Under the pieces are notes generated by a model that saw only the letters and a program-made list of their open reading frames with translations, did no database searches and was not told where the DNA came from. 34,632 bases of DNA from a virus: positions 1-34,632 of the IMG/VR virus record IMGVR_UViG_3300027917_000106; one strand, given 5' to 3'. A program made the position numbers and the translations under genes. This document shows, in pieces, positions 21,118 through 32,070 of the stretch; within the stretch, counting starts at the first letter, position 1; each line of letters starts with the position of its first letter.

Positions 21118-22350
21118 TTAGTACGCGTTAACCGTTGTCTGGTTCAGGTCAGAGATCTTGCCTGAAGTGTTGCGCTCTTTGATGTAAAGCTCGCAAATCT
21201 CCATGGCAGTCGCCGTCCATACGCCAGCGGTGTCACTGCGCTTGAAGATGCTTCCGCCCTGACGACGCCAGGAAAGGTCCTTCTGTACGGCCCGGTAAAC
21301 CTTACCGAGGTCAACAGCAAAAATCTTGTTATACGGGGCATCCGTATCAACAATAATGTCAATACGCCCAAGTGCAGACTGGAACGATGTCATGGCAAAG
21401 CCACTTGTCTTGTCAGACGGACTCAGCCTCAACTCGCCCTCGTACAGCTCTTCCACGTTGATGGCCTGCCATGCGTTTGTCAGAACCGTCAGCCCATCTT
21501 CTGGACTATCAGAACCTGACTTGTGCATGATGCCTGCCAACAATTGGCGGAATAGTGACGGAGTCAGGTCCCGATTGGTCCCTGAGTTGTCCATCACAAA
21601 GCTGCTGTACCGTGGATAAGTCGCCGTATTAATATTCTGGAAAGTGCCAGAGTCACCAATCAACTTATCCAGGCCGGTAATAGCCCTGTTAACAGAGCCG
21701 GGCCAGACAACGTAGTCACCAGCAGAGGCTCCCGTCACAGTCTCGCCAGAGGCGAAGTTAACGATAGCCTGGTTGCTGGAGTTAGTTGCCTGCTCAACGT
21801 TACTCACGGTTGATGTGCCGTGCAGTGTACCAATAGCACCTGACGACCTAATCTCAACCCGGAGCCCGTCCCACAAAAGACGAGCATCGTACACGGCAAC
21901 ATCAGTAACTGACGATGCCAATGTAGCGTCCACCAATGTGGTCACAGAGCCAGTACCATCAAGGTACATCATCCCGTTCTCCATCTTCATGAGACCGGTC
22001 ATCATGCCCTTGATTTCGGAAGTGATAACGTCGCGGGCAACATTCTTGCCCTTGGCCGCAGTGGCCATAACGCCATCGGTTAGCTGGACAGAACCCACCA
22101 GGAATTTTCTATATGCCTTGTAGGTCTGGTAGTCTTGCTTGTCAGCTACCGGGAAAGCCCCACCGTCCTCGACATAGCCGATTCCTGTGTTACGGGCAGA
22201 ATGAACACGGCCCTCGATATGAGTACCTGTCCATTTGTCATCTCTCCGGAGTAGCTGGCGAAGCTTCGATTTCTGATTCAACGTCTCAACCACACCCTGC
22301 AAATAGCGAATAAAGGTGAGGCTGACGTCCCCAATGCCTACGCCTGCCAT
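21118..22350 (-). CDS. Major capsid protein (HK97-fold type, 410 aa)
   Basis: Forms the icosahedral head shell. Evidence is the length (410 aa) and the position directly after scaffold and directly before a strong terminator. Sequence features typical of capsid proteins are an N-terminal helix with LNQKSKLRQLLRRD, an early loop region (HIEGRVHSARNTGIGYVEDGG, like an E-loop), VIASEIKG-like text (DVITSEIKGMMTGLMKMENG) and a C-terminal half with DLGKVYRAVQKDLSWRRQGG. No Lys-Asn crosslink pair was assigned. AAGGAG lies upstream. No N-terminal pro-domain is evident, matching use of a separate scaffold. Confidence 0.85.
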   Translation of the reverse strand: MAGVGIGDVSLTFIRYLQGVVETLNQKSKLRQLLRRDDKWTGTHIEGRVHSARNTGIGYVEDGGAFPVADKQDYQTYKAYRKFLVGSVQLTDGVMATAAKGKNVARDVITSEIKGMMTGLMKMENGMMYLDGTGSVTTLVDATLASSVTDVAVYDARLLWDGLRVEIRSSGAIGTLHGTSTVSNVEQATNSSNQAIVNFASGETVTGASAGDYVVWPGSVNRAITGLDKLIGDSGTFQNINTATYPRYSSFVMDNSGTNRDLTPSLFRQLLAGIMHKSGSDSPEDGLTVLTNAWQAINVEELYEGELRLSPSDKTSGFAMTSFQSALGRIDIIVDTDAPYNKIFAVDLGKVYRAVQKDLSWRRQGGSIFKRSDTAGVWTATAMEICELYIKERNTSGKISDLNQTTVNAY

Positions 22351-23481: not shown

Positions 23482-24069
23482 TTACATGAGCCAATGAGAA
23501 CACGTTTCTGGACAAACTTGCTGGCATATACGGTACCGTATCTCTGACTCTGCACTGTCATGTTCCTTGCCCCCCCATTGCCCTGGGGTACTGTGCCCAT
23601 GGTCGAAATCGCCGGTGGCCTGGATTTGGATTACATGCATAACTTCATGAGAAAAAGCAGAGGCAGCTATACAATCCTCCTGATAATACCGAATCAAATT
23701 ATAACCATTCGTAATTGCCCAACATTTTTCCCAACCCTCGTTACTCCAGTCATAGTCACATTCAAACGGCTCTGGCTCTACATGGACCGTAATGTAACGG
23801 ACAGATTTTCTGGCCAATTTTTCCCCGTAGCCCATAAATTCATGCATGCCGAGAATAGTCTCCTCGGTGGCAATCTCTATATGTTCTTTCTTTTCGTTAG
23901 TGCCGTTTAGGCAAACGTACATTCCATGCCGAGTCTCAAAATCCGGCGAAAGACCACATGCCGCAAGGCTAACCTTCGCGACGAGACTGAACTTGAGCCA
24001 AGTTTTCAGCAGCCCTGTTAGCCTGCGCCACTTGCCCTGCAGCTTGAGATCGAAGATCTGTTTGGTCAT
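23482..24069 (-). CDS. Putative lipoprotein with HExxH zinc-metalloprotease motif (195 aa)
   Basis: SHEVMHVIQ at residues 140-148 gives the zinc-binding and catalytic HExxH signature; His157, His159 and AESEIR (about 173-178) downstream could supply the third ligand. The N-terminal region contains LVAKVSLAACG, a lipobox-like end at Cys38, so the product may be a lipid-anchored periplasmic enzyme. The ATG at 24069 overlaps the portal gene by 101 bases; a shorter start nearer the signal would need CTG. Six more cysteines suggest disulfides. It sits between portal and scaffold, where a prohead protease is often found, but the lipobox argues for an envelope role. Activity is unproven. Confidence 0.6.
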   Translation of the reverse strand: MTKQIFDLKLQGKWRRLTGLLKTWLKFSLVAKVSLAACGLSPDFETRHGMYVCLNGTNEKKEHIEIATEETILGMHEFMGYGEKLARKSVRYITVHVEPEPFECDYDWSNEGWEKCWAITNGYNLIRYYQEDCIAASAFSHEVMHVIQIQATGDFDHGHSTPGQWGGKEHDSAESEIRYRICQQVCPETCSHWLM

Positions 24070-26305
24070 TGGCAAATCTCAAATCTGTCCCTAAGTGTCC
24101 AGGATTATTAGTACTTCCCCCCTGGGCGCTCTGGTCAGGACCCCCTCTGCCAGAGCCACCCATTGTCCTCATGGGCGGAGGCGGCTGTCCTGCCTGTGCC
24201 GCCATTGCCCACTGGACGTAAAACATCCAAACCTGAGCAACCTGCTGAACGACTATCTGGTCTTCACGCCGACCAGGACCCCTCAGCCAACCCTCCAACT
24301 CTTCGGCAAAAATATGAGGCAAATCCCACATTTGTGGCTGGTGAGGGATACCCTTCTTAAAATTGTACGGAATCTGGCTAGCGGCTGCCCGCTCAGACGC
24401 CTCATGGTCATAACCTGACTCTGGCCGCTTCAAATTGGCATGTCTTGAGAAGGCCTTTTTGTCAAATACGCCAGTAGCCGGGTCCATATAGTAACCGAGA
24501 TTGGCCAAATCTGCTGCCTGTGTAAGACGAACCGCCGGGTTCCTAGACAATCCGTCTTCTTCCTCAATCTGGACATCGTAATCCCCTGTCAGATTCATCT
24601 GCTCAAACGAGTACGTCTGAGCCCCATCCGGCCCCGCGATAGTGAATTTCCGCTCAGGCCTCATCATCTTCTGGACCATAATGAGAGCCCCCTTGTGCAG
24701 GGCCCTCCACTCGGAATTATTTCTAATCACAACCGACCTAAGTTGTTGAATTGCCTCAGCATCTATGATAGCCATTGCTCGACCATTTGGGTCATTCGGG
24801 GTAACACCAGCCTCCTGATCGGTAACCCCAAACTGGCTCCGTATATTCTGTGTTAACTCGGTATCCCTGCTCCAAACATCGTTAGGGAGCGGCGCAGGGT
24901 ACAAGAACTGAGGATTCCCAGCTGCTGCATTGTACTTGATGACCTGCGCCGTGGTAGCCGTGAATTCATCAGCTGAGATACGGCTACCAATCGGGTCAAG
25001 AAGTTTGGGCTTACATATGAGCTCTACGTGCTCCCGCTTCTGGGTCTGTATCTGATTGATTTCCCTTTGTAATGGCCAGGACTGCGCCAACGGGGGCTCA
25101 TACCAGAACTCCCCACAGTTTTTATCGAATCCAAATCTATACAACGGAAACCGTCCATACCAATCGTGGCGCATGGGTTTTTCGTCAACGATTTTACTGT
25201 TGACCATCGAGATAATCCGACCCTCTGGGTACATCTGAGTAGGTCTCTCGAAGAATTTGTAGACGTAGCAGTAGTCCCGCAGATAATCGACACCACCGTA
25301 ACTATCTACAGAATTGAATCTGATCTCAGATGTTTGGTCTGCGAAAATGTCCTCTTCTGACTTGATAACATGTTGAAATTGCGGGAATTTTTTCCTTGCC
25401 TCCTGAGTCGGAACCCCCTTACGCACACACACCCACTGGGCCTCTTCTAGGGATTCTGCGCCAGGTTCTGGATAAATATGCCTAGAATCATGAAGCTCGA
25501 TGCTTACAGTGCCCTCATTAGCCTCAATGAGTGGCGGAGGTTCCATATTCTGTGGCAACGGCCCCATTTGAGGCATCGGGAGCGGAGGCATATCGGCTGG
25601 CGGTACCGGTTCCCCGGACTCCATTTCCGCCTGCACATCTTCACCAGCCTGTTTCTTCAGCATGTCCTGAGTCATGTGTTGCTGAAGGGCTATTTCCTGC
25701 TGACGCTGCATCACACAGCGAGGGCAAGGTTGCCCGACCACGTCCTTGTTAGGTTCGTAAAAATTGCATACCGGACAGTAAGCAACTGTTTCTCCGCCCT
25801 GCTCGTCCCAGTTAAGCTCAAAGAAAGCATTCCCTGCCCACGGTAAGTACTCGTGGGCATTGACATATTTCAGGTCAAGTTCCTCTTTTCGCCTGAGCCA
25901 TTGGAAGAAAAAATCTCCGACTCTTGCTGCGTGTTGTTCTTCGAAATCAGTAGTCGACGGAACCACCGTACAGGTCGGGATTGAACGAGTAAGCTTGCCC
26001 ACCAGACTACGTGCAGTAGGACGAAGAACGTTATGAACGCTACGTAGACGCTTAACGTCTTCATTCACAAGTCTCACGATCTCCCCTGTGTCTCGACTGC
26101 GTACAATGAGCTGCTCGCCCTTTAGATATAGGCGATATAGCTCCCAGTCATTCTCGTATGGTTGCCGCGCCTCGTAGGCCCTTAAAAACTCCTTATTGAG
26201 ACGCTTGCTTAACTCTTCAAGCTCAGAGTCCTGGACATAATTCTCCGGATAAGTGAAATCATCAAGGATTCCGGTAGGATCGATAGCGTCATGGGTAGTT
26301 GTCAT
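23969..26305 (-). CDS. Portal protein (P22-like, 778 aa)
   Basis: Forms the dodecameric DNA gate at the head vertex. AGGG lies before the ATG, and the start overlaps the upstream stop as ATGA. The N-terminal EARQPYENDWELYRLYLKG, the NVLRPTARSLVGKLTR segment and the C-terminal half (DPNGRAMAIIDAEAIQQLRS, NSEWRALHKGALIM) match P22-type portals by size and pattern. Unusual features are a CPVC-x13-CPRC zinc-ribbon-like pair at residues 177-197 and a Pro/Met-rich insertion (PPADMPPLPMPQMGPLPQN) at about 235-260. The C-terminus is Gly/Gln-rich. It lies downstream of the large terminase, as expected. Confidence 0.85.
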   Translation of the reverse strand: MTTTHDAIDPTGILDDFTYPENYVQDSELEELSKRLNKEFLRAYEARQPYENDWELYRLYLKGEQLIVRSRDTGEIVRLVNEDVKRLRSVHNVLRPTARSLVGKLTRSIPTCTVVPSTTDFEEQHAARVGDFFFQWLRRKEELDLKYVNAHEYLPWAGNAFFELNWDEQGGETVAYCPVCNFYEPNKDVVGQPCPRCVMQRQQEIALQQHMTQDMLKKQAGEDVQAEMESGEPVPPADMPPLPMPQMGPLPQNMEPPPLIEANEGTVSIELHDSRHIYPEPGAESLEEAQWVCVRKGVPTQEARKKFPQFQHVIKSEEDIFADQTSEIRFNSVDSYGGVDYLRDYCYVYKFFERPTQMYPEGRIISMVNSKIVDEKPMRHDWYGRFPLYRFGFDKNCGEFWYEPPLAQSWPLQREINQIQTQKREHVELICKPKLLDPIGSRISADEFTATTAQVIKYNAAAGNPQFLYPAPLPNDVWSRDTELTQNIRSQFGVTDQEAGVTPNDPNGRAMAIIDAEAIQQLRSVVIRNNSEWRALHKGALIMVQKMMRPERKFTIAGPDGAQTYSFEQMNLTGDYDVQIEEEDGLSRNPAVRLTQAADLANLGYYMDPATGVFDKKAFSRHANLKRPESGYDHEASERAAASQIPYNFKKGIPHQPQMWDLPHIFAEELEGWLRGPGRREDQIVVQQVAQVWMFYVQWAMAAQAGQPPPPMRTMGGSGRGGPDQSAQGGSTNNPGHLGTDLRFANDQTDLRSQAAGQVAQANRAAENLAQVQSRREG

Positions 26306-26562: not shown

Positions 26563-26924
26563 CCGACCACCTCCCAGTCCCTCAGGTCTATTTCGCGCCC
26601 ATCTGCTGTCATTACCCTTCTGGGCTCATTGTCCTTCGGCTCCTCTTCTATGTTAATCTCTGCCATCGTGTCTTCCATGGCCCTAAGCTGGATATCGTGA
26701 GATTTCCTAAGCGACTCTGCCCGAACAGCCATTTCCGTATTCTCGGCCTTGATCATCTGCATGGCATACTTGTTAGTTCTTTCGTAAGAAGCCAAAAGAT
26801 CTAACGTAGATTTTGTCATACGCTCAATCCGCCTGTCAGTCACCACAAGCAACACGCAACACAAGAGAAACATAGCAATAACAGAAATCGTAATAACAAC
26901 CTCAGGCGTCAAAAAGGTCATCAT
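26559..26924 (-). CDS. Membrane-anchored coiled-coil protein (121 aa)
   Basis: GAGG lies before the first ATG; the start overlaps the terminase 3' end by 23 bases. A single membrane span covers residues about 8-28 (VVITISVIAMFLLCCVLLVV), followed by a long charged helix (RIERMTKSTLDLLASYERTN through HDIQLRAMEDTMAEINIEEE) and a short tail. The topology resembles an i-spanin or a membrane tether, but the position in the packaging module is odd for a lysis gene. The function is unknown. Confidence 0.6.
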   Translation of the reverse strand: MMTFLTPEVVITISVIAMFLLCCVLLVVTDRRIERMTKSTLDLLASYERTNKYAMQMIKAENTEMAVRAESLRKSHDIQLRAMEDTMAEINIEEEPKDNEPRRVMTADGREIDLRDWEVVG

Positions 26925-28767
26925 CAGTTGTCCTCATCTCCCTGTGAATGTCGACCCACTCTTCATTGTAGGCCTCAGAGATTTTAGGCCTCTCGTTCTC
27001 ATACGGAATGAACGCATGAGGTGCGGCCACAGCAGTGGCACATCCGATAACTAAACTCATAACTCGGTCATCATGAGCGCCAGTAGCGCCACCAAAACGA
27101 GTATGTGTTCCCTTGTCAGATCTTTCTTGTTCATATGCTGTCATCTCACGGATAGTTGCCGAACACGGAATTGTAATGGCCCGATCTTTAACGAATCGTT
27201 GCAGGGATGAAATCATAAACGGTTTAGTCCGCACATTAGTCTCAACACCCAGCTTCCCCGCAAGCCGATGTTTTGCCTGGGCATGATTGGATTCGTCTCG
27301 GAAGATATTCCAATATGCATAATCTTGACGAAGCTTGAGCATTGTCGCTTCGCCAAAACCACCAGTGAGCTCGATGCTAACAAGGGCAGAATTATAAAAG
27401 ACTGCTAGCTTAAATAACTCTTCAGCGTAGTCCAAAGGGTTGACCCAACCATGGTACTGGGCCACCAAGTCCAAAGTAACATTAGTTCCGTAGTGAGTAA
27501 CCTTAAGAACAGACGCAGCACTGGCATCTCCGTCAGTGAGCCCACGAGCAGTATCAACACCTATGATGTAATCCGCGCCAACCGCCGGTGTCTCCCAGAT
27601 GCGTAATGGGCCTGCATCATGGGGGTCAAATTCGAGGTAGCGCCTCTCCAGCTCTTCCTCAAGAACAATGTCACCAGTAATCCTCAAATGCCCTCGGTCC
27701 GGAGGCTTCGCCTCTTCCAGCATTTCTGCCAACACCTGGCGATCAAACACAGGATTCTTGGCTAGCGCTGCCGGCTTCCCGTAGATTCTTGCCTGAATCT
27801 CAAAATAATCTAAAAGCTTTACCTCTTCGTCGATGTCTTCTTTGTTAACCAGGCCAGCATCATACATGCTGATTTGATGCATGCTAACAATTGGTCTGCC
27901 ACGAGAATCTAGGTTTTCCGGCGGCCCATTTTCATAGAGTTTCGCGAGGACTCTTTGTTCCCACGCCTCCGGCCCATGTAGCGGCGTACCAGTGACAATG
28001 AAACTAGAGTTCTTAACATTGATAAGACGGATACGGGCTTCCGAGAAGAATTCTTCCGGTATGTGTTCATCAAAGTGTCCAAGATTGTACTGGGCTCCTT
28101 GTAGAACATCTACGCCCCCTTCGTCGGAAAAGAGTGTTATCTCAGCTTTCTTATGCTTACAGCTTTGAGCCTTTCCGGCCTCGGCACAATTGGGACAAGC
28201 AATTTTTAGAACTTTGGTTTTCTCACTGTAGTGATTGAACCACTTGCCGCCAATAGGGAACATTGGGGTTAGAGGGTTCCGGGCTTCTGGCTCACCCCGA
28301 AGCATCTTGGCCTCAAAGACTCGATGGCCATACTTCGTATACGCCAAACCAATAATAAACGTAGCTATTTTATTTGTTCTTGGGTCCGGGAATTTTCTCC
28401 ACTTATGTTGCCCTGTCGCCACAAAATAATGTTCAGCATACCCACTCATAGTCTTACTGGTTCTATTCCCAGCACGGAAGTATCGAATAAAAGCAGGAGA
28501 CTTATGAAAATCCAAACTTACATCATGGGCAGGTCGGTACAGGATCATAGGATCTGCCTCGACACGTCTATCATACTCGTCGTAAAGCTTTTTCCATTCC
28601 CTTACCCACGGATTGAACCACGGCAATTGATCTCTTTGCGCCTGAGTCAAGGACTTCGCAGCCGCAGCAACCTCTTGGGAGTACGCAAGGAAGTTCTCCT
28701 CTTTCTCCTTAACCTTGGCCGCTTTCGCTATTTCGCGGCCATGCTGCATGGCTTCGTTAGAGTTCAC
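26902..28767 (-). CDS. terL: Terminase large subunit (ATPase-nuclease, 621 aa)
   Basis: Packages DNA into the prohead and cuts the concatemer. A deviant Walker A, RAGNRTSKT (residues 98-106), and Walker B, GHFDEH (230-235, Asp233/Glu234), are followed by the coupling motif IVTGTP (257-262). The nuclease domain carries IGVDTARG (402-409), ELTGG (466-470) and GAHDDR (563-568), the acidic triad of the RNase H-like fold. A CPNC...C-x-H cluster at 191-205 between Walker A and B may bind zinc. The start is GTG, overlapping the upstream TGA by four bases; an ATG six codons later is an alternative. Confidence 0.92.
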   Translation of the reverse strand: MNSNEAMQHGREIAKAAKVKEKEENFLAYSQEVAAAAKSLTQAQRDQLPWFNPWVREWKKLYDEYDRRVEADPMILYRPAHDVSLDFHKSPAFIRYFRAGNRTSKTMSGYAEHYFVATGQHKWRKFPDPRTNKIATFIIGLAYTKYGHRVFEAKMLRGEPEARNPLTPMFPIGGKWFNHYSEKTKVLKIACPNCAEAGKAQSCKHKKAEITLFSDEGGVDVLQGAQYNLGHFDEHIPEEFFSEARIRLINVKNSSFIVTGTPLHGPEAWEQRVLAKLYENGPPENLDSRGRPIVSMHQISMYDAGLVNKEDIDEEVKLLDYFEIQARIYGKPAALAKNPVFDRQVLAEMLEEAKPPDRGHLRITGDIVLEEELERRYLEFDPHDAGPLRIWETPAVGADYIIGVDTARGLTDGDASAASVLKVTHYGTNVTLDLVAQYHGWVNPLDYAEELFKLAVFYNSALVSIELTGGFGEATMLKLRQDYAYWNIFRDESNHAQAKHRLAGKLGVETNVRTKPFMISSLQRFVKDRAITIPCSATIREMTAYEQERSDKGTHTRFGGATGAHDDRVMSLVIGCATAVAAPHAFIPYENERPKISEAYNEEWVDIHREMRTTDDDLFDA

Positions 28768-29431: not shown

Positions 29432-29818
29432 TTAGGTTCCGCAGATAGCTACGAGGCACTCGCAGGCCGCAGTATCTGCGGTAAGGATCAAGTCGTCGGC
29501 GACAGTGACATCAATATTTGATAGTGCGATAAAACCGAGGGCATTCACCTTGACAGTGTTTGCATCCGTATCACTCGAAAACTGCACGTCAACAAAGTTA
29601 GTAGCATCCAAGTTCCACACACAGATTGCTGTCACTGAGGCAAAGTGTCCCAGGTCAACCGTGTTACCGCCAGTGTCTGCTTGGATTTCTCTATATTCCC
29701 ATTCATCAGGAGTAAGCGCAGTTGGCGACGTTAGGTTGTTCGTATCTATAGTAGGTTCTGAGTAGTCAGAGTTTTTTGAGTAAAGAAATCTTGCACTAAC
29801 TTTTGCGTAATCAGTCAT
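29432..29818 (-). CDS. Small beta-sandwich virion protein (128 aa)
   Basis: GGTGAG precedes the ATG, which overlaps the upstream gene by eight bases. Strands repeat (ASVTAICVWNLDATNFVDVQ, VKVNALGFIALSNIDVTV, DDLILTADTAACECLVAICG) with a C-terminal cysteine-containing strand. The pattern fits small phage head-decoration or head-completion domains with an NLDATNFV-type core. A similar fold is suggested for the exported protein at 5871-6263. The exact role is not known. Confidence 0.6.
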   Translation of the reverse strand: MTDYAKVSARFLYSKNSDYSEPTIDTNNLTSPTALTPDEWEYREIQADTGGNTVDLGHFASVTAICVWNLDATNFVDVQFSSDTDANTVKVNALGFIALSNIDVTVADDLILTADTAACECLVAICGT

Positions 29819-30320
29819 GACTCACCAGCTCTTCAAAGTGGTTGCGGGCATACTTCTTATGGAAGATGCCGGTTAGAGGTGCGGATTTGTCTTGTGCGGT
29901 AGAGTGAGTAAATGGGTGTCCACCCTTAGGACCGTAGCTTCTTTTTCTTGGGGTTCTTACAATCCTTTTTGAGGCAAACATCGACAAGAGGTCGTCCACA
30001 GATTCTTCAGTCGTTGTGGGCTCTTTAGGTTTTTCAATTACTTTTGTGCCGACAAGACCGTAGGCTTTTGCTTCCAATTCGATGAGCTTGATGATGTCCT
30101 TGTCTAAGGTGATAGAGCCCTGCCTCACGCCTTCGAGCCAGGCCTTAATCGTCTCCGCCTTATTGGCATCTGTCTTATTAGGCAGTGTGCGGACATCAAT
30201 AGGCTGCCAACCACGGCTCAGGAGGTAAGCCTCGTCATCCAGCCCCAACGGTACATTAACATACAGACGCTTTGGCCTGTCATTGTCAGGCACACGGGGC
30301 CATTGTCCCCAATTGGCCAC
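29811..30320 (-). CDS. Candidate terminase small subunit or packaging accessory (169 aa)
   Basis: The start is GTG at 30320, the first possible start after an in-frame stop, with no clear Shine-Dalgarno sequence. The GTG lies inside an 8-bp inverted repeat. A helical core (KAETIKAWLEGVRQGSITLD then KDIIKLIELEAKAYGL) resembles helices of small terminases, and the C-terminus is basic (RTPRKRSYGPKGGH). It is three genes before the large terminase. No helix-turn-helix could be assigned with certainty, so this is a positional and compositional call. Confidence 0.45.
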   Translation of the reverse strand: MANWGQWPRVPDNDRPKRLYVNVPLGLDDEAYLLSRGWQPIDVRTLPNKTDANKAETIKAWLEGVRQGSITLDKDIIKLIELEAKAYGLVGTKVIEKPKEPTTTEESVDDLLSMFASKRIVRTPRKRSYGPKGGHPFTHSTAQDKSAPLTGIFHKKYARNHFEELVSHD

Positions 30321-30361: not shown

Positions 30362-30568
30362 TTAAAAACGGTGCGGGAAAGGTGGCCGAGGGGGTAATTT
30401 CTCCTCTGGGGGGTCGTCAAAGAAGATATCTATTAAATTCAGTGTTTCCATGCAGCTATGGCAGTACACTTCCCTTTCCCTCTTTTTGCATTTATCCCGT
30501 ACTACCTCGTACAAAGGTGTATTCCTCTCATTCGCACCACATAACCGGCAAGGCCCCAATACCTTCAT
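30362..30568 (-). CDS. Small zinc-finger protein (68 aa)
   Basis: The start is ATG 30568 (MKVLGPC), five bases after GGAGG; a longer frame from 30610 lacks such a site. Cys7/Cys10 (CRLC) and Cys36/Cys39 (CHSC), with Cys27 between, suggest a zinc ribbon. The tail is acidic then proline-rich. It follows the structured non-coding stretch. It could bind nucleic acid or a host protein. Confidence 0.6.
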   Translation of the reverse strand: MKVLGPCRLCGANERNTPLYEVVRDKCKKREREVYCHSCMETLNLIDIFFDDPPEEKLPPRPPFPHRF

Positions 30569-30628
30569 TTGGCCTCCGTATGGACGGGCCCGGACAGGGG
30601 AGTCGGGCACCGCCTATTACAGTATGGC

Positions 30629-30960
30629 ATACACAGGGGGGTTGCCTAGATGTGTCTTTTGTAGAGACAAGGTGTGCGATTTGGCCTTGCCAAATCCCCC
30701 ACACAAGGCTCCGCCCTGCTGTGCCTGATAAGGACTTATACCTGCAGGGCGGAGTACCCAGCCTTGCCATGGCGCTGCTGGGTGGGTACCTGGCGTAAGT
30801 TCCCGGTTACACCAGGGGAATTAATGGCAACGTTCTCGGCTTCGACGTAGGTCCTTACGAGACTGCCACGAGGCGATCAACCCCCGCTGCTCTTTCGGTG
30901 CCCCAGTAGCCGAAGCAGAAAACGCGCCACCCAGCCGCCGAAGTGACTGGGGGGATTGAT
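30629..30960 (-). ncRNA. Candidate structured RNA, unknown class
   Basis: This stretch of about 330 bases has no convincing gene but contains at least eight successive stems. Read on the minus strand: 30960-30950 with 30885-30876 (ten pairs, one bulge) enclosing 30918-30910/30898-30887; 30867-30862/30831-30826; 30816-30807/30798-30789 (ten pairs, one U-G); 30783-30777/30762-30756; 30754-30744/30719-30709 (eleven perfect pairs); 30704-30700/30676-30672 extending 30696-30689/30685-30678 (eight pairs, loop of three); 30669-30665/30657-30653. G-U pairs in two stems fit only the minus-strand transcript. It resembles no RNA family I can name. Confidence 0.45.
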
Positions 30961-30963
30961 ATA

Positions 30964-31149
30964 TTATTGCCCTTGTAGCTGCGAATCGTCAACAAAAGAA
31001 AGTACCGGGGCCCCACAGATAACACAAAGTAAATGGGTAGTGTTGCATTCACAATTCGGGTCCTCACATGAGGAAGATTGGATATCAACATCCATCCATT
31101 TGTTACAGGGGAAGCAATAAAAACTGGCCCTATCAGTATCTATAAGCAT
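30964..31149 (-). CDS. Small zinc-binding protein (61 aa)
   Basis: The ATG overlaps the end of the upstream gene by ten bases. Cysteines at 12/15 (CFPC), 28, 33/35 (CEC) and 42/45 (CVIC) suggest one or two zinc sites. It ends immediately before the structured non-coding stretch. The Shine-Dalgarno sequence (AAGGA) is rather far upstream, so coupling is likely. The function is unknown. Confidence 0.55.
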   Translation of the reverse strand: MLIDTDRASFYCFPCNKWMDVDIQSSSCEDPNCECNTTHLLCVICGAPVLSFVDDSQLQGQ

Positions 31150-31634: not shown

Positions 31635-31639
31635 GAGGT

Positions 31640-31669
31640 ATGGTACACGGGAGTGTAGGGGTGTGTAAA
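31640..31669 (-). promoter_or_regulatory. Sigma-70-like promoter candidate
   Basis: On the minus strand TTTACA (31669-31664) and TACCAT (31645-31640) are 18 bases apart. The -10 ends five bases before the ATG at 31634, so transcription would begin at or next to the start codon, giving a leaderless message. Only four of six -10 bases match the consensus. Confidence 0.3.
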
Positions 31670-31776
31670 GGACGGAGGTTGCGCGAAAGGACTTAATGGG
31701 TATGTATGGGGTCCCCGTTAACGAAATCCGAAGGTACCCTATGGGGGGTAGTACCGGCGAATCCGAATCCAGGCTC

Positions 31777-31953
31777 GCCAGCCTCGGCTGGCTCGCGCTA
31801 TGACATGGATGTCATAGTGGGGTGACAAATTTTGTCACTGAACAGATGGGGGGTATGAAATTATTGCGTACTTTGGGCTGCTGTTTTGACAAAATGTCAC
31901 AAATGACGCAGTGCGTCTGACAAAATGTCACACACAATAACGCAGCGCGTTAT
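31777..31953. repeat. Array of seven palindromes with two alternating motifs
   Basis: In order: GCCAGCC-tc-GGCTGGC (31777-31792); CTATGACAT-gg-ATGTCATAG (31798-31817); GTGACAA-att-TTGTCAC (31822-31838); TGACA-aaa-TGTCA (31887-31899); GACGCA-g-TGCGTC (31905-31917); TGACA-aaa-TGTCA (31918-31930); ATAACGC-agc-GCGTTAT (31937-31953). The last four form two tandem composite units. TGACA half-sites recur at spacings of 22, 64 and 31 bases, close to whole helical turns. Likely binding sites for a dimeric regulator or initiator. Confidence 0.8.
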
Positions 31954-32070
31954 CCCCCTCTCAAGTGTAGGGCGCTGTAAGTATGGGTATATATTGGACT
32001 ATCCGGATGCGCGCCGAGATCAGATATTTCCTGTAGTGCATCTCTTCAAGAGTGGGACTTTTTTCCCCAC

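Follow-up and report, generated by a model that had tools for sequence, protein, structure and literature searches.

The window analysed here is the IMG/VR viral contig IMGVR_UViG_3300027917_000106 over its whole length of 34,632 bases, which may be a fragment. It belongs to a marine phage, and its long run of minus-strand genes makes up a podovirus- or SU10-like set. The features that frame the locus are as follows.

21118-22350, minus strand: capsid gene.
23969-26305, minus strand: portal gene.
26902-28767, minus strand: gene for the terminase large subunit with a nuclease domain.
29811-30320, minus strand: gene for a conserved 169-aa pre-terminase protein, which precedes the terminase in all relatives reaching that far.
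30362-30568, minus strand: downstream small Cys-rich gene (68 aa), with its ATG at 30568, GGAGG before the ATG, and CxxC pairs.
30569-30963, minus strand: hairpin-rich gap of 395 bp between two small Cys-rich genes, a candidate structured leader or non-coding RNA.
30964-31149, minus strand: upstream small Cys-rich gene (61 aa), with its stop at 30964 and its 3' end overlapped by a promoter-like site.

From the gap on through the terminase gene, the locus forms a one-strand operon, with several small genes located upstream of the terminase gene on the same strand. Residues 386-579 of the terminase profile matched the nuclease domain of T4-type gp17 (3c6a, E 7e-8). The 169-aa pre-terminase protein is a possible candidate for the small terminase; a fold search with this protein gave no match, and hence no name was given to it. 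The downstream Cys-rich gene showed a weak codon score and no family match. Elsewhere in the window, at 2013-2054, a perfect inverted repeat of 13 bp around a 16-base loop lies upstream of an amidase-like gene; it is longer than any other such repeat in the window.

A sequence-only reading of this DNA had described a gap of about 395 bases without a credible gene, and this description held for 30569-30963. All six frames had codon scores below or close to zero, and a coding reading was rejected; moreover, the gap splits no recognised gene. Its GC content is 57-60%, compared with 44-50% for most flanking stretches, and it contains few repeated motifs resembling protein sites. A 112-nt spacing common to two short repeats in the gap looked like chance once the units were read. 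The accompanying statement that ordinary spacers are a few bases long was not exact, since a second, larger non-coding stretch of 436 bp (31635-32070, minus strand) had been overlooked. This stretch carries operator-looking palindromes, e.g., TGACAAAATTTGTCA, TGACATCCATGTCA, and TGACATTTTGTCA, and the relatives described below have different palindromes at the corresponding place. It also contains a promoter-like TTTACA-18-TACCAT (31640-31669, minus strand), the third-best such site on the minus strand. A start from this site would coincide with, or lie beside, the ATG (31634) of a gene for a 164-aa basic protein, which suggests a leaderless message.

We counted perfect Watson-Crick arms that were 7 bp or longer and enclosed loops of up to 40 bases, with dinucleotide shuffles of the gap as the null. 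The gap contains five such arms, whereas 0.83 would be expected, and this number was reached in 0 of 300 shuffles. The longest perfect arm is 11 bp (p about 0.003-0.02 in the shuffles). When scored helices were compared with those of 150 shuffles, the third-ranked helix beat all of them, whereas the first (p 0.12) and the fifth (p 0.18) did not. The minus-strand folding z was -3.76 for 30569-30963, -2.77 for 30600-30980, and -2.89 for the 332 bases (30629-30960) delimited in the sequence-only reading. The plus strand gave -2.36 for 30569-30963 and -3.11 for the 332 bases; over the 332 bases it folds about as well as the minus strand, and therefore energy alone does not fix the strand. The preference for the minus strand that had been proposed was nevertheless supported by the direction of the genes and by two stems that are improved by G-U pairs existing only in the minus-strand RNA. 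When the minus strand was cut into 160-nt tiles, the lowest z within the gap was -4.2, whereas the coding tiles 21441, 18561, and 19201 reached -4.8 to -5.3. The strongest folding tile of the tiled window was 21441-21600 (minus strand, z -5.3), which lies within the capsid gene. The gap is unusually hairpin-rich, yet the signal is moderate.

The predicted fold of the minus-strand RNA consists of the following elements, from 5' to 3'.

30876-30960, minus strand: 5' domain in fold A, a closing helix (30960-30951/30885-30876) around two hairpins.
30830-30925, minus strand: 5' domain in fold B, a long-range helix (30925-30909/30846-30830) of 16 pairs with one mismatch.
30789-30816, minus strand: 10-bp hairpin, mean pair probability 0.98.
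30756-30783, minus strand: 7-bp hairpin ACCCAGC/GCUGGGU, mean pair probability 0.71, overlapped by a 7-bp alternative register.
30709-30754, minus strand: 11-bp perfect hairpin (inverted repeats I3 and I9), mean pair probability 0.98.
30672-30704, minus strand: 8-bp stem with an AAG loop (30678-30696), to which five outer pairs are added across an asymmetric internal loop.
30653-30669, minus strand: 5-bp hairpin UGUCU/AGACA, mean pair probability 0.73.
30576-30622, minus strand: 3'-terminal hairpin outside the 332 bases above, with an arm reaching the GGAGG (30578-30574) of the next gene.

Three stems of the earlier description were found as stated, namely the perfect 11-bp stem (30709-30719/30744-30754), the 8-bp stem with a 3-base loop, and the 10-bp stem (30789-30798/30807-30816), whose single G-U pair forms only on the minus strand. 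These stems and the 7-bp hairpin make up the middle of the molecule (30816-30672), which is secure in the prediction, with pair probabilities of 0.96-0.98 for three hairpins and 0.71 for the 7-bp one. A closing helix around two hairpins had also been proposed. It is present at 30876-30885/30951-30960, where it can be read either as an uninterrupted helix of 10 pairs, one of them U-G, or as a helix with one bulge. Inside it, fold A places a hairpin at 30951-30930 with a C(UUCG)G tetraloop (30943-30938) and another at about 30887-30923. However, the closing helix is not secure because the 5' domain has two folds predicted to be near-isoenergetic, the rival being the 16-pair helix of fold B. The latter is the top-scoring helix in the gap, and 12% of shuffles contain an equally good one. 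The loop of the 11-bp hairpin (30729-30738) is complementary to 30848-30857 at 9 of 10 positions; a kissing interaction between them was not significant (p 0.087) and was rejected. The predicted fold has no helix that closes the whole molecule from 5' to 3'.

At the upstream border of the gap, the following site was identified.

30963-30992, minus strand: sigma-70-like promoter, TTGACG (30992-30987), 18-nt spacer, and AATAAT (30968-30963), with 10 of 12 consensus matches.

This site ranks fourth of 34,592 minus-strand positions under an approximate weight matrix, and the transcription start expected from it, about 30957, coincides with the beginning of the first helix. Promoter-like matches in the region numbered 2 against 2.2 expected, which is not above chance; the argument thus rests on the placement of the site, noticed after the fact. 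A terminator scan detected none at the 3' end of the gap, and GGAGG and then ATG come directly after the last hairpin.

To search for relatives, we recruited contigs from IMG/VR by the capsid protein and by terminase and capsid alignments. Approximately 20 related phage contigs were obtained, with terminases 43-56% identical, and the 169-aa protein is encoded by every one of them that extends to this position. Neither the sequence nor the fold of the gap was found in any of them, and the insert composed of the two Cys-rich genes, the gene for the 164-aa basic protein, and the gap was likewise in none of them. DNA searches of phage and plasmid collections with the gap gave nothing meaningful. 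Nothing was obtained from IMG/VR scans using only the terminase or using the three insert proteins, or from two prophage scans of bacterial genomes. A single-sequence covariance model of 30672-30818 detected only the window itself in 0.6 Mb of relatives plus 13 whole records. A scan of IMG/VR for the 8-bp hairpin matched two unrelated contigs, one at a terminator and one at a probably coding stretch, and both were rejected. The sole near-identical relative (IMGVR_UViG_3300001687_000939; 99.6% over 5.2 kb) covers the capsid and portal genes but not the gap. Phage records, plasmids, the approximately 20 relatives, and the IMG/VR scans yielded no homologue, which leaves the covariation analysis asked for in the sequence-only reading, the decisive test here, with no material. 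The lineage has almost no isolated relatives.

In place of the gap, many of the relatives carry, immediately before the gene for the 169-aa protein, a non-coding element that is conserved and spans about 300 bases (14 sequences compared).

L025, L027-L037, L040, L041, and L044, about 200-450 bases upstream of the gene for the 169-aa protein (e.g., L033:5758-6151): conserved element of the relatives.

Its conserved blocks include GGGTACC..GGGTCCCAT and TTGAACACGA..TTTGAAAC. It is no more structured than shuffles (z about 0), and it is probably a DNA-level regulatory or packaging site. As it shows no sequence match and no excess structure, it was rejected as the counterpart of the gap. In the window, GGGTACC..GGGACCCCAT at 31700-31745 (minus strand) resembles the block GGGTACC..GGGTCCCAT, and the counterpart of the relatives' element may therefore lie there, upstream of the gene for the 164-aa protein; a profile search for the element did not detect this site.

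Rfam 15 gave no match in the window at the gathering score, and up to E = 10 only chance matches appeared (E 0.3-0.5). The earlier view that nothing ties the gap to GOLLD, ROOL, or phi29 pRNA thus stood at both levels. GOLLD and ROOL, which both have Rfam models (PMC12286853), were excluded as families by the lack of a match to these models. No family-model match up to E = 10 was obtained for a group I or group II intron or a ribozyme core.

These results support the structured RNA on the minus strand that the sequence-only reading had proposed, given the stem excess, the minus-only G-U pairs, and the well-placed promoter-like site. With no terminator and with a ribosome-binding site directly after the gap, a 5' leader is no less likely than a free-standing large RNA. 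Our preferred reading, tentative and somewhat short of probable, is that the gap serves the packaging-gene transcript as a structured 5' leader under the control of a promoter. RNA synthesis would begin at about 30957, driven by the sigma-70-like promoter at the 3' end of the preceding gene, and the transcript would run through approximately 390 nt of consecutive hairpins into the Cys-rich gene, the pre-terminase gene, and the terminase gene without a terminator. The most likely roles of the hairpins would be to make the message more stable and to regulate how the first gene is translated; translation control is proposed because the last hairpin reaches the ribosome-binding site of this gene. 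Processing into a separate RNA, i.e., a cleaved stable leader fragment, would also be possible. A leader of this kind accords with the minus-strand z of -3.76 and with the single strand shared as far as the terminase gene. On the other hand, it would be much longer than ordinary leaders, related phages have no structured leader before the same genes, coding tiles of the window fold with larger z, promoter-like matches are at chance level under approximate weights, and the missing homologues leave it without covariation.

A free-standing non-coding phage RNA of about 330-390 nt, with its own promoter, processed and acting in trans, e.g., on host or phage gene expression, is unlikely, although it deserves consideration. 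The promoter-like site abuts the first helix, and eight hairpins, the C(UUCG)G tetraloop, complementary loops, and the lack of a coding frame would suit such a molecule. Its 3' end, however, would have no terminator, no helix would close its two ends, and it belongs to no known family and is absent from the relatives.

We regard it as similarly unlikely that the gap is a GC-rich spacer, either decayed or evolving fast, in which the stems serve no purpose and their excess is owed partly to local composition and post hoc choice. The raised GC content, coding tiles with comparable or larger z, a top helix within the range of the shuffles, and conservation nowhere all fit a spacer. However, shuffles preserving dinucleotides still give fewer stems, and phages rarely retain 395 bp of useless DNA.

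It is distinctly unlikely that the palindromes act as DNA, as a packaging start or a replication or recombination site. The gap adjoins the packaging genes, its strands fold almost equally over the 332 bases, and the relatives carry an unstructured conserved non-coding element before the same genes. In contrast, that element was not found in the gap, protein-site-like motifs are few there, and two stems gain G-U pairs found only in the minus-strand RNA.

A new class of large phage RNA, with its own promoter beside the packaging genes, forming a multi-hairpin particle with loop-loop contacts and acting in trans in late infection, would be a long shot. A packaging RNA working on the motor like phi29 pRNA is highly improbable, since a nuclease domain is part of the terminase itself. 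Although the gap lies near the terminase gene and offers several hairpins with possible loop-loop pairing, it has no Rfam match and relatives with the same kind of terminase have no candidate RNA.

If real, the gap would represent an orphan structured RNA or leader heading the packaging operon in a marine phage lineage, and it would join the small number of phage RNAs known at such size. For now, it is a candidate from a single sequence and settles no question; neither its fold nor its job is confirmed because no relative of the sequence was found anywhere searched. As an orphan candidate, it is a reasonable subject for metatranscriptome and probing work.

Compared with known systems, the candidate resembles GOLLD and ROOL in being phage-encoded and non-coding with many hairpins and possible loop-loop pairing. 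Unlike them, it has no Rfam match, and it is approximately half the length of GOLLD or less, many GOLLD members exceeding 800 nt. GOLLD and ROOL often occur near tRNA islands (PMC12286853), whereas the window, which may be a fragment, contains no tRNA or tmRNA, tRNA proximity being an association and not a strict criterion. The prohead RNA (pRNA) of phi29, which is 174 nt long and, according to PMC11476376, confined to phi29-like phages, is likewise a non-coding RNA linked to packaging, and the candidate lies close to packaging genes. In contrast to the phi29 system, the terminase here shows a T4-type gp17 nuclease domain and not a phi29-type packaging ATPase. Compared with the usual structured 5' leaders, the candidate is longer and more hairpin-dense, with no homologue and no demonstrated switch or ligand. 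As in the structured 5' leaders of phage and bacterial operons, a promoter-like site, a non-coding run of hairpins, a ribosome-binding site, and a gene follow one another on one strand.
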